A stretch of DNA of 64,000 nt. It comes from Gemmatimonadota bacterium. GTDB lineage: Bacteria > Gemmatimonadota > Gemmatimonadetes > Gemmatimonadales > GWC2-71-9. A program made the position numbers and the translations under genes. Within the stretch, counting starts at the first letter, position 1. The number at the start of each line of letters is the position of its first letter. The DNA lies in contig JANYLJ010000019.1 of the NCBI GenBank assembly GCA_025357945.1, positions 1-64,000 of the forward strand, read 5' to 3'. Of this stretch, positions 21,645 to 53,216 are shown piece by piece. The notes under the pieces are model-generated. The model was not told where the DNA came from and did not search any database. It worked only from the letters and a program-made list of their open reading frames with translations.

Positions 21645-21663
21645 GGGTGGGGAAGATAAAGGG

Positions 21664-21746
21664 AGAGCGGAGAGACGAGAAACGAGGGGCTCCACATCGC
21701 GCGCGGCCTCTCGCTATGTTCGACCCGTCTCTCGTCTCTCCTACTC
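21664..21746. repeat. Heptanucleotide-armed palindromic intergenic element (copy C)
   Basis: agagcgg|agagacg|agaaacg|aggggct ... cgtctct|cgtctct|cctactc. Confidence 0.75.
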
Positions 21747-29269: not shown

Positions 29270-29856
29270 CCGGCGCCGAGGCCGAGCTCGGCCTGGTGCG
29301 GCCGCAGCGCGGTGATCACCTCGGCGATCAACTCGTCGAGCGGGACGCCGAGCTCTGCCGCACCGAGCCGGACATCGTCGCGGCTCACGCCGCGCGCAAA
29401 CGCCTTGTCCTTGAGCTTCTTGGTCACCGAGCGCGGCTCGAGGTCGTTCAGCGACTTGCCGGGCCGCACGAGCGCACAGGCGACGACGAACCCGCACAAT
29501 TCGTCCACCGCAAAAAGGGCCCGTGCCATGTCGGTCGTCCGCGCCACGCCGGTGAACGCCGCATGACCAAGAATCGCGACGCACGCGTCATCTGGAAATC
29601 CTGCCGCACGCAGGTGACGGACACCTTCGCTGGGGTGTTCCTGGTCGGCGGCACGGGCGTCGTTTGGGAAGCGTTCGTAGTCGAAGTCGTGCAACAGGCC
29701 AACCGTGCCCCAAACGTCGGGGTCACCGCCGTACTTGGGCGCGAAGTGGCGCATTGCCAACTCCACCGAGCGCATGTGCGCACGCAGCGCCGGCGAGGTG
29801 GTCCAGGAGAACATCAGTTCCTCAGCGCGACGACGATCCCAAACGGATTCCGGCAT
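29266..29856 (-). CDS. HD-domain protein
   Basis: VGLLHDFDYERFP, HAAFTGV; HD hydrolase family. Confidence 0.82.
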   Translation of the reverse strand: MPESVWDRRRAEELMFSWTTSPALRAHMRSVELAMRHFAPKYGGDPDVWGTVGLLHDFDYERFPNDARAADQEHPSEGVRHLRAAGFPDDACVAILGHAAFTGVARTTDMARALFAVDELCGFVVACALVRPGKSLNDLEPRSVTKKLKDKAFARGVSRDDVRLGAAELGVPLDELIAEVITALRPHQAELGLGAG

Positions 29857-29882
29857 TGTTGAAAGGTAAGAGCGGAGGCTGG

Positions 29883-29967
29883 GAGAGACGAGAGACGAGC
29901 GACGAGAGAGACCTGCCGGAACGGCTGGGCGTCGGCCGTGCGGGAGGTTTCTCTCGTCTCTCGCCCT
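29883..29967. repeat. Heptanucleotide-armed palindromic intergenic element (copy B)
   Basis: gagagac|gagagac|gagcgac|gagagag ... gtttctc|tcgtctc|tcgccct. Confidence 0.75.
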
Positions 29968-29968
29968 T

Positions 29969-39427: not shown

Positions 39428-40195
39428 ATGCCCGCCGCGTTGACAGCGCTTCGCAATGTGATCGCCGCCCTCTGGACCTGGTTCGTGCTCGCAGCCTGCC
39501 TCCTCCTGTTCATGCCGGTCATCTTGCTGTGGCGCATCGTCGGTTGGCCGTTTGACCGGATGAACTACGTCGGTGGGCGGCTCTTCCGGCAGGCCGGTGC
39601 GATGACTGTGCGCCTGACGCCGCGCTGGCATTTTGCCGTGCGTGGCACGTTGCCGTCAAACCCGCGATTGCCCTACATCGTCGTTGCCAACCATGAATCC
39701 TTTGCCGACATGCTCCTGCTCTGCCTCCTCCCGTGGGAGATGAAGTGGCTCAGCAAGATCGAGATCATGTGGATCCCGGTGCTTGGTTGGTCGATGTGGG
39801 GAGCACGAGATGTCGGCGTGAAGCGTGGTCGGGCGACGAGCGCCAAGCTGGCAATGGCGGCGTGCCGTGAACGGCTCGCCCACCATGTGTCGGTGATCTT
39901 CTTCCCCGAAGGAACCCGGTCGCCAACCCGCGAGCTGCTGCCGTTCAAGGATGGCGCGTTTCGACTCGCAATAGAAACCGGCGTCCCGATCCTGCCACTC
40001 GCGATTCACGGCACGCGCAACGCGATTGCGCGGCACGATTGGCGGATCAATGCTGCGACCGCGGTGGTCGAGGTGCTGGAGCCGATTCCGACGGCCGGCG
40101 TTAATCAGCAGGAGCTGAAGCAGCAAGTGAGGGCGACTATCGAGACGGCGCGGGCGAGGTTGCGGGCCAGCCAGCCGTCAGCGCCTAGCGTCTAG
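39428..40195 (+). CDS. 1-acyl-sn-glycerol-3-phosphate acyltransferase (PlsC family)
   Basis: NHESFADMLLL, FFPEGTRSPT. Confidence 0.93.
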   Translation: MPAALTALRNVIAALWTWFVLAACLLLFMPVILLWRIVGWPFDRMNYVGGRLFRQAGAMTVRLTPRWHFAVRGTLPSNPRLPYIVVANHESFADMLLLCLLPWEMKWLSKIEIMWIPVLGWSMWGARDVGVKRGRATSAKLAMAACRERLAHHVSVIFFPEGTRSPTRELLPFKDGAFRLAIETGVPILPLAIHGTRNAIARHDWRINAATAVVEVLEPIPTAGVNQQELKQQVRATIETARARLRASQPSAPSV

Positions 40196-40222
40196 CGTCT
40201 AGCACCCAGCTCCTAGCGCCTA
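40181..40222. repeat. Six-unit heptanucleotide tandem array (gcgccta gcgtcta gcgtcta gcaccca gctccta gcgccta)
   Basis: Read directly; spans plsC stop and the gap to the convergent gene. Confidence 0.9.
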
Positions 40223-50444: not shown

Positions 50445-51164
50445 ATGATTCGACGCGCGTTCGCGCCACTCGCCGCGGCCACCTTCGCGGTGTTGATTGG
50501 CGCGTGCGGTGGCAATACGCAGCGCACCCGCGACACCGGGGCGATCGGCCGTGACAGCACTCGCGGTGGCTGGATGCCCCTGTTCGACGGTCGCACGCTC
50601 GCCGGATGGCACACCTACAAGCAGGCCAACGGCGTGACGTCGGGTTGGACCGTTGACGCCGGGGCGGTGCGTACCGACGGCAGCGCGCACGACCTGGTGA
50701 GCGACCAGCAATACAGCTCGTTCGAGCTGGAGTTGGAATGGAAGGTCGCGCCGGGCGCGAACAGCGGCATCTTCTACTGGGCCAATGAGGGCACCGCCGA
50801 GATCTACGAGAACGCACCGGAGATGCAGTTGCTCGACAACACTGGCCATCCCGACGGCAAGTCGCCGCTCACCGCTGCCGGCTCGCTGTACGCCCTCTAT
50901 CCATCGCCGATCGAGCTGGTCAAGCCGGTCGGCGAGTGGAACCAGGTACGCATCGTTGCACACGGCGGCAAGGTGCAGCAGTGGCTGAACGGGGTGAAGG
51001 TGGTGGACGTCAACTTTGATTCCAGGGCGTTCAAGGCCAACGTGGCCGCCAGCAAGTTCAAGCAGTGGCTCACCTTCGGGAAGTCGCGCCGCGGCCACCT
51101 CGGCCTGCAATCTCATGGCGGCAGGGTCTGGTTCCGCGCTATCCGTATCAAGGATTTCTCATGA
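50445..51164 (+). CDS. DUF1080 / 3-keto-disaccharide hydrolase-domain lipoprotein
   Basis: Lipobox [53 protein letters not shown]. Confidence 0.92.
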
Positions 51165-52360
51165 GCCCGCGCCTTCGACTGCAGTTGATGATGTTCCTCC
51201 AGTACTTCATCTGGGGGAGCTGGTTCGTTACCATGGCGACATACCTCCTGCGCACACGGCAGTTCACGGGCCAGCAGGTCGGCTATGCCTACATGGCAAC
51301 GGCAATCGCGGCCCTGGTGAGCCCGTTCTTCGTCGGCATGGTTGCCGACAGGTTCTTCGCTTCGGAACGCATGTTGGCGCTGCTGCACCTGATCGGCGCA
51401 GGCCTCATGCTACTGCTGTCGATGCAAACCACGTTCAGTTCGTTCTATCCGCTGTTGATCCTCTACGCGCTCTGCTACATGCCAACGTTGTCGCTCACCA
51501 ACTCGATCGCCTTTCATCACGTCGCCGACCCGACCCGCGATTTTCCGATGATCCGCGTGCTGGGAACCTTTGGCTGGATCGTCGCCGGCGTCGTTGTGGG
51601 ATTGGTACTCCGTGCGGAGGCGCTTGCGACGCCGATGCAGTTGGCCGCCGGGGCGTCCCTGTTGATGGCGGGCTTCTCGCTCACGCTGCCACATACTCCG
51701 CCCAGGGCTGCCGGCACGCCGTTCACCGTGCGCGACGCCCTCGGCCTCGACGCGCTGGGACTGCTCAAGGACCGCTCGTTCCTGATGTTCTGCGTCGGCT
51801 CCTTCCTGCTCTGCATCCCGCTGCAGTTCTACTACAGCTTCGCCAATCCGTTCCTCACCGAGATCGGCGTGCAGCACCCAGCGTTCATCCAGAGCTTCGG
51901 GCAGATGTCGGAATTGCTGTTCATGCTGGCGCTGCCGCTTTTGCTGCGACGACTCGGTATCAAAGGGATCATGCTGGTGGGCATGGGCGCGTGGTCGCTG
52001 CGGTACTTTGCGTTCGCGCATGGCAATGCCGGTTCGTACTACTGGATGATCCTCCTCGGCATCGTACTGCACGGCATCTGCTATGACTTCTTCTTCGTCG
52101 CCGGGCAGATCTACACCGACGAACGGGCAGGTGTTCGCATTCGCGGCGCCGCCCAGGGATTCCTGAACTTCCTCACCAACGGCGTCGGGTACTTCATTGG
52201 GGCGTTCGTTTCGGGACGCGTGGTGGACGCCTACCTCGTCGGCCAGAACCAGCACAACTGGCACGCGATCTGGATGGTGCCGGCCATCGGGGCGGCTGCG
52301 ATCCTGGTGGTCTTTGCGGTGGCGTTCCGGCCCAAAACGGTCTCGGCCGCTAGCACATGA
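51161..52360 (+). CDS. MFS transporter, nucleoside/sugar-H+ symporter-like
   Basis: [28 protein letters not shown] overlap with DUF1080 gene. Confidence 0.88.
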
Positions 52361-52364
52361 TCGG

Positions 52365-52490
52365 GAAAGACGAGAAACGAGAGACGAGAAACGCGGCACA
52401 AGAGGGTTGCCTTGCCCGTGGCCTGGGCTGTCTCGTCTCTCGTCTCTCGTTTCTCGTCTCTCCTTCTTGCTCGTCTCTCGTCTCTCGTTG
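52365..52490. repeat. Heptanucleotide-armed palindromic intergenic element (copy A)
   Basis: Left gaaagac|gagaaac|gagagac|gagaaac; right gtctcgt|ctctcgt|ctctcgt|ttctcgt|ctctcct|tcttgct|cgtctct|cgtctct; 22-nt perfect arm match. Confidence 0.92.
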
Positions 52491-53216
52491 TTGATCGAAG
52501 CCTGCGTCGACACCCTCACCTCTGCGCTCAACGCCCAGGGCGGCGGGGCCGATCGTGTCGAACTCTGCGACAACCTCGCCGATGCCGGCACAACACCGAG
52601 TCACGGCACCCTGCTGCTCGCCTTGGAACAACTCACCATCCCGGTCTTCCCGATTATCCGGCCGCGCGGTGGCGGATTCGTCTACGACGCCGCCGACGCC
52701 GCAGTCACCGTCGCGGACCTGAGGCACGCCCGTGACCTGGGCGCCCCTGGTGCGGTGATCGGCGCGCTGACCGCCGATGGTGACGTGGACGACCGCCTGG
52801 TCGGAGCGCTCCGCGATACGGCACCGGACCTGCAGCTCACCTTCCATCGCGCGTTCGACGCCTGCCGTGATCCTGTCGCGGCACTGGAAGCACTGATCAA
52901 GCTCGGAATCAATCGCGTGTTGACGTCCGGGCAGGCTGCAACCGCGTGGGAGGGGCGCGAGCCGATCGCCGCGCTAGTGCGTCAGGCGGCCGGCCGCATC
53001 ACGATTCTTGCCGGCGGCGGGGTCAATGAAGAGAACGCGGCCGAACTCGTGCGCTTGACCGGCGTCACCGAGTTGCACGTCCGCGGCGCCATGCTCCGGC
53101 GCGACGCGGGTCCCACCCATGACATTCCGTTTCGGAAGAGGCTACCGAAGGACGAGTTGACGCGTGGGGTGACGGATGTGCGGCGGATTGCAGCGATACG
53201 GGCGGCGGTGTCATAG
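52491..53216 (+). CDS. cutC: CutC family copper homeostasis protein
   Basis: LIEACVDTLTSALNAQGGGADRVELCDNLADAGTTPS, FHRAFD, ILAGGGV; TTG start. Confidence 0.92.
   Translation: MIEACVDTLTSALNAQGGGADRVELCDNLADAGTTPSHGTLLLALEQLTIPVFPIIRPRGGGFVYDAADAAVTVADLRHARDLGAPGAVIGALTADGDVDDRLVGALRDTAPDLQLTFHRAFDACRDPVAALEALIKLGINRVLTSGQAATAWEGREPIAALVRQAAGRITILAGGGVNEENAAELVRLTGVTELHVRGAMLRRDAGPTHDIPFRKRLPKDELTRGVTDVRRIAAIRAAVS

Follow-up and report, generated by a model that had tools for sequence, protein, structure and literature searches.

Heptad arrays behind stop codons in Gemmatimonadota: candidate two-way 3'-end hairpins without a classical U-tract

The gap between a gene for an MFS transporter and cutC in a Gemmatimonadota genome holds two inverted arrays of seven-nucleotide repeats (heptads). 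This locus raises the questions of what such an element is, which of the two genes it belongs to and whether it is peculiar to its lineage. Over-abundance of heptamers in bacteria has been noted since 2007 and, to our knowledge, no function has been accepted for it. No publication on repeats of this kind in Gemmatimonadota was found in the open-access literature. The window referred to below is the whole stretch of 64,000 nucleotides that was analysed, and its genome is designated G000.

The initial annotation had described a single palindrome filling the entire gap. The four consecutive heptads of the left array and the 22-nt perfect inverted match between the arms were found exactly as described there (Table 1). 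The right array is also present, with 7.9 copies at period 7 and 11% indels according to TRF, but it is not unbroken because a phase slip or indel occurs near 52463-52470. The palindrome itself is not continuous as the two arms are separated by a spacer of 38 nt, and only the inner part of the right arm is predicted to pair with the left arm, its outer ~25 nt being left unpaired. The predicted RNA fold of the element has a z-score of -5.9 against dinucleotide shuffles. No Rfam family reached its gathering score over 20000-54000, where the top match was a sub-threshold miRNA model (RF03792).

Table 1. Positions of the element in the MFS-cutC gap, its neighbouring genes and two further copies in the window
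Feature	Position	Strand	Evidence
Upstream gene, MFS / nucleoside-H+ symporter family transporter	51065..52360	+	Pfam PF03825 Nuc_H_symport E 2.2e-122, MFS_1; ORF list
Left arm, four purine-rich heptads GAAAGAC GAGAAAC GAGAGAC GAGAAAC	52365..52392	+	sequence, TRF, motif search
22-nt perfect inverted match, left side	52368..52389	+	
Spacer/loop, 38 nt, weak inner hairpin	52393..52430	+	sequence, fold
Right arm, pyrimidine-rich heptads (GTCTCTC/GTTTCTC class)	52431..52487	+	sequence, TRF, motif search, fold
22-nt perfect inverted match, right side	52438..52459	+	
cutC family gene, start uncertain	52488..53216	+	Pfam PF03932 CutC E 1.4e-70
Second element copy, between two minus-strand genes	21669..21742 (gap 21645-21740)	.	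motif search; fold z -4.3
Third element copy, between two minus-strand genes	29882..29964 (gap 29815-29968)	.	motif search; fold z -6.4

The emphasis had previously been placed on the 5' region of cutC, where the array was said to run directly into a TTG start. A TTG at 52488 does lie at the edge of the array and no purine-rich Shine-Dalgarno sequence is found ahead of it, but the start of the gene is uncertain as further in-frame TTGs occur at 52467 and 52491. Since all three are located within or at the border of the array, the heptads may supply the first residues of CutC. In G009, a second species of the genus, the MFS-cutC gap carries GGCTCAT heptads that contain the in-frame ATG of cutC, and in G008, where the MFS neighbour was not recognised by the search used, ACGACCA heptads directly follow the in-frame ATG. 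Judging from these sequences, the 5' end of cutC varies among species and CutC appears to have a variable N-terminus encoded by the arrays. The element itself is instead anchored at the stop codon of the MFS gene, whose 5' end is approximate and whose TGA occupies 52358-52360; the purine arm begins 5 nt 3' of this codon.

The element is one of many. The motif CGAGARACGAGARAC, with up to two mismatches allowed, was matched 16 times in the window against 0.53 expected, a number reached in none of 100 shuffles, and an 18-mer of the array was matched 366 times across the window genome while its reversed control gave no matches. An artefact of assembly is excluded by the presence of similar arrays in other, independent assemblies. 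Several contigs of the window genome start inside heptad arrays (C1:1-123, C6:41-65 and C7:62-79), and long arrays therefore probably break the assembly, with array lengths underestimated as a consequence. Two more arrays of period 7 in the window, at 40180-40222 (AGCGCCT) and 2898-2916 (GGCTCAC), are not purine-rich, and the latter sits in a divergent gap.

Unit lengths and spellings were compared over 1.84 Mb from three species of the genus, namely the window genome (604 kb), G009 (840 kb) and G003 (400 kb), where coding DNA was masked with a simple codon-usage gene caller written for the analysis and non-coding tandem arrays with units of 3-24 were counted. In G009, 50 arrays were observed at period 7, 33 at 14 and 19 at 21, with none or one at all other lengths. 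The corresponding numbers in G003 were 54, 36 and 12, again with none or one elsewhere, and the window genome was similar. The lag-7 enrichment by which the initial annotation proposed to check its claim is thus borne out, as the non-coding arrays are almost solely of period 7 and its multiples. First-order Markov shuffles gave no period-7 arrays, and none were found in 200 kb of G043, a relative of the same order. Raw lag-7 identity over all intergenic DNA rises only slightly (0.279-0.295); the elements occupy little of this DNA, which makes the measure too blunt and the array counts the informative one.

The spelling of the heptads is far less constant than their length. GAGAGAC is the chief heptad in the window genome and is accompanied by GTGAGAC, GAGAGGT, GTGAAAC, GTGGCTA and others in G009, while AGAGACT (equivalent to TAGAGAC), GATGACA, GGGTGAT, GGGAGAA and CGAGAAG are found in G003. 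Spelling can also drift in phase inside a single array, for example from GAGAGAC through GTGAGAC to GTAAGAC. The general anatomy consists of a purine-rich heptad array, a spacer of 10-150 nt and a complementary pyrimidine-rich heptad array. What is conserved is the unit length, the purine-first order and the pairing rather than the identity of the bases. Another repeat that is dispersed between genes, TCATCCYGAGC, which has a complementary arm, is often located in the loops of these elements, as in the fetched stretch of G003 at 195303-195417; it was matched 21 times in the window genome (604 kb), 41 times in G009 (840 kb) and 26 times in G003 (400 kb), and not at all in G043, G059 and G316, of which 200 kb each were searched.

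A period that is independent of spelling favours neutral microsatellite growth, in which polymerase slippage prefers 7-nt units that are tolerated in intergenic DNA and serve no function. Over-representation of heptamers is known from many bacteria and has been tied to the contact size of the polymerase (Mrazek 2007, as reported in PMC4692102 and PMC4679880). The rapid turnover of array length and spelling, together with the poor conservation of presence at a given gap, also speaks for neutral growth. Retention of a hairpin with both arms respelled, which is evidence for the hairpin reading favoured below, is seen between the 21645-21740 gap of the window genome and the orthologous gap of G009 (GAGARAC vs GTGAAAC). 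At position 226190 of G009 the purine arm reads GAGAGAC and its counterpart in G003 reads TAGAGAC, with a clear pyrimidine array only in G003. In most conserved gaps with an array in one species, none was found above threshold in the other species, and any function must therefore be readily replaced.

Arrays were oriented by their purine strand for the analysis of position. A stop codon was found within 20 nt in 71 of the 75 arrays that have a stop on the 5' side, compared with 5-7% of random non-coding positions. Across 49 tandem gaps, arrays followed the upstream stop at a median of 9 nt, whereas the start of the next gene lay a median of 64 nt away (p = 0.001). The polarity was observed to be absolute: neighbouring arrays were arranged as purine-then-pyrimidine in 34 pairs and in the opposite order in none, and single arrays in tandem gaps had the purine array near the stop in 18 cases and near the start in none. 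Per kb of non-coding DNA, convergent gaps contain 1.07 arrays, tandem gaps 0.54 and divergent gaps 0.25 (convergent vs divergent, p = 0.01), and an array is present in 11 of the 201 gaps called divergent. In convergent pairs, a stop codon often lies directly at both arms.

The 36 paired elements are predicted to form stable structures with a median dG of -72 kcal/mol, a median z-score of -7.8 and a median loop of 50 nt; some arrays have no detectable partner arm. When arms were swapped, each arm was observed to pair better with its own partner than with the partners of other elements in the same genome, both in G009 (p = 3e-4) and in G003 (p = 5e-4). In the window genome the arms are too uniform to give this test any power (p = 0.38). 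Neutral growth alone predicts neither this partner-specific complementarity nor the stop anchoring nor the absolute purine-first order, and passive avoidance of promoters would not place arrays within 20 nt of stops. As a full account we consider neutral growth to be unlikely, while a mixed form, where neutral growth takes place on top of existing terminator stems, is compatible with these observations, and slippage may well be the source of raw material.

We favour, with a probability of roughly 0.55, the reading that the element is a bidirectional, stop-anchored 3'-end hairpin which would act as a terminator, as a barrier to 3' exonucleases or as both, has no classical U-tract and is lengthened by 7-nt slippage. 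Going by position and predicted structure, the hairpins after stop codons in these soil bacteria most likely mark the ends of transcription. Transcription from either side would produce the purine arm first and the pyrimidine arm second, and the folded RNA could then have a stem some 15-40 bp long. The pyrimidine 3' arm would leave a weak rPy:dPu RNA-DNA hybrid from which the forming hairpin may release the RNA. The hybrid of the pyrimidine arm is calculated to be the weaker one (-1.30 vs -1.60 kcal/mol per step, using nearest-neighbour parameters) and might be regarded as a diluted U-tract, with the purine-first palindrome being what a two-way terminator would require. The purine bias of 3'-end stems that are not built from heptads was observed to be weak and uneven. 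Protection of mRNA 3' ends would call for an identical anatomy.

As expected of a terminator, the elements have a predicted stable stem directly past the stop of a gene and are enriched in tail-to-tail gaps. The GC-rich hairpin with a short loop and a T-run that defines classical Rho-independent terminators was not found at 52200-52700, and a scan of this region, which covers loops of 3-8 nt only and is blind to an element of this size, gave no terminator-like site and no U-tract. Termination, if there is any, would therefore proceed without a U-tract. The long loops (median 50 nt) are unlike those of typical intrinsic terminators and count against the terminator reading. The arrays would grow as units of 7 nt, or of 8 nt in some lineages, are duplicated, and the likeness of the arms may be maintained by selection for pairing, by fold-back template switching or by both. 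The integrity of the stem could also result from mutation through template switching instead of from selection.

Termination could in principle also depend on Rho, with the pyrimidine arm acting as its loading site, as this arm would give a regular, YC-rich and G-poor RNA and one such arm lies past the stop from either side. Each of the four genomes checked encodes Rho, as judged by two PF07497 matches per genome. However, the predicted pairing with the purine arm would conceal the pyrimidine arm from Rho, and G043 has just as many matches although no arrays were found in 200 kb of it. We regard a role as a Rho loading site as improbable.

Heptamer arrays of Xanthomonas and Nostoc have so far been approached through G-quadruplexes. 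A function at the level of DNA structure, either G-quadruplex or triplex, as proposed for those heptads, would fit the purine-rich strand asymmetry and some G-rich heptads in relatives (GGGTGAT and GGGGAAG). The dominant heptads GAGAGAC, TAGAGAC, GTGAGAC and GATGACA, however, have no G-tracts and yet share the same layout, so that DNA structure is a very improbable basis for the function. The G-quadruplex is not the common denominator, given that GAGAGAC contains no G-tract, and it can be ruled out as a general cause.

A mobile palindromic repeat of the REP/MITE type, copied by a Y1 or other transposase, is hardly credible: many dispersed intergenic palindromic copies and one PF01797 protein in the window genome would suit it, but spacer and arm spelling differ between copies, which are therefore not copies of one sequence, and PF01797, with two matches in G003, has none in G009 (98% complete), even though 840 kb of this genome contain at least 49 purine/pyrimidine arrays in non-coding DNA. 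RAYT-type mobility is largely refuted by this array-rich genome. DNA uptake sequences (USS/DUS) were also rejected as there is no single dominant sequence and several unrelated heptads occur within G009 and within G003.

The element had been proposed to represent a heptad-based class belonging to this lineage. It does belong to a genome-wide intergenic class, but many more Gemmatimonadota, as well as Chloroflexi, have arrays of the R6Y pattern, and a repeat private to the lineage was ruled out by searches across the phylum and in sequence collections. In a search of 61 relatives, the fixed spelling GAGARAC did not occur outside the genus, an apparent restriction that follows from the use of one spelling in the search. 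The spelling-free pattern (R6Y)x4 was found in 124 of 300 Gemmatimonadota genomes; this is an upper bound because the matches examined in family f6 (G071, C1:200001-600000) were all in coding DNA (9/9), unlike in other families, and the counts of f6 are not taken as members. Chloroflexi genomes contain the pattern at up to 106 places. A period-6 control was near zero in most genomes with (R6Y)x4. G298, from another genus of the same family, and G108, from another family of the same order, have several non-coding arrays located 2-45 nt past a stop, in small samples with weak gene calls. Eight viral contigs from IMG/VR were also observed to contain GTTTCTC/GTCTCTC heptad arrays.

In a few lineages, units of eight nucleotides take the place of heptads or are found next to them. 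They are abundant only in one genus, represented by G059 and G119, and occur to some extent in G242, G315 and G316. The octads read GAGAAGAC in G059 and G119, GGAAGGAC in G242 and AGGGAAAC in G316. Some octad arrays in G059 lie directly at stop codons.

The short tandem repeats (STRRs) of cyanobacteria had been suggested as the known comparison. Those of Calothrix/Anabaena and the GGGGA(C/T)T arrays of Nostoc are similar in being intergenic heptanucleotide tandem arrays that are numerous in some genomes. The Nostoc heptad is unrelated in sequence to the heptads found here, and the STRRs are set apart here by their described features. We know of no account in which inverted pairing and stop anchoring are defining features of the STRRs. 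The nearest relatives are instead the convergent GGGAATC arrays of Xanthomonas, which number about 185 per genome with 70-75 convergent (inverted) pairs of heterogeneous units (PMC4692102). They are intergenic, lie near the stop of the 5' gene and favour convergent over divergent gaps. In Xanthomonas citri, the ends of assembled transcripts, either start or stop, fall more frequently in arrays that have this layout and can form a G4 than in control repeats (PMC4692102). The arrays described here likewise consist of tandem 7-nt units in high copy number between genes, form inverted pairs close to stops and are few in divergent gaps. They differ in that the Xanthomonas unit GGGANTN is capable of forming a G-quadruplex whereas GAGAGAC, TAGAGAC and GTGAGAC have no G3 tracts. 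In addition, they belong to another phylum and are spelled in many ways, both within a species and from one species to another. Arm complementarity and the turnover at orthologous gaps were tested here.

Other systems share single features with the element. The TAACTGA repeats of Beggiatoaceae are also intergenic 7-nt direct repeats, but they use one fixed heptad, are direct only and lie mostly just upstream of start codons (PMC4679880). The uptake-sequence terminators of Neisseria and Pasteurellaceae, in which inverted copies of a short repeat fold into hairpins that are enriched between tail-to-tail genes, appear by analogy to be the best functional counterpart; they carry a fixed, species-wide signal of 9-11 nt with one copy per arm and a U-tail (PMC1852404), in contrast to the tandem heptads of many spellings with no U-tail seen here. 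Canonical bidirectional intrinsic terminators (A-tract, stem and T-tract) have the same purine-first symmetry, 3'-end position and hairpin, whereas the present elements lack the U-tract and have long loops and a stem with heptad periodicity.

The kind of repeat has thus already been described, though it was left unexplained, and what is new here is a variant that is diverse in spelling and has no G-tracts. A more speculative and, in our judgement, doubtful extension is that the heptad arrays of Gemmatimonadota, Chloroflexi and Xanthomonas form one convergent class of terminators, where a pyrimidine 3' arm would replace the U-tract and duplication of 7 nt (8 nt in some lineages) would rewrite both arms at once, such that unit length and purine/pyrimidine pattern are conserved and base identity is free. 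The occurrence of the same layout with no G-tracts, with diverse spellings, strict polarity and stop anchoring separates G-quadruplexes, slippage and 3'-end hairpins as explanations, and recoding can test them. The arrays also bear on how transcripts may end without U-tracts in genomes of this GC content, and, as a natural experiment, they could help to show why duplication works in units of 7 (or 8) nucleotides.
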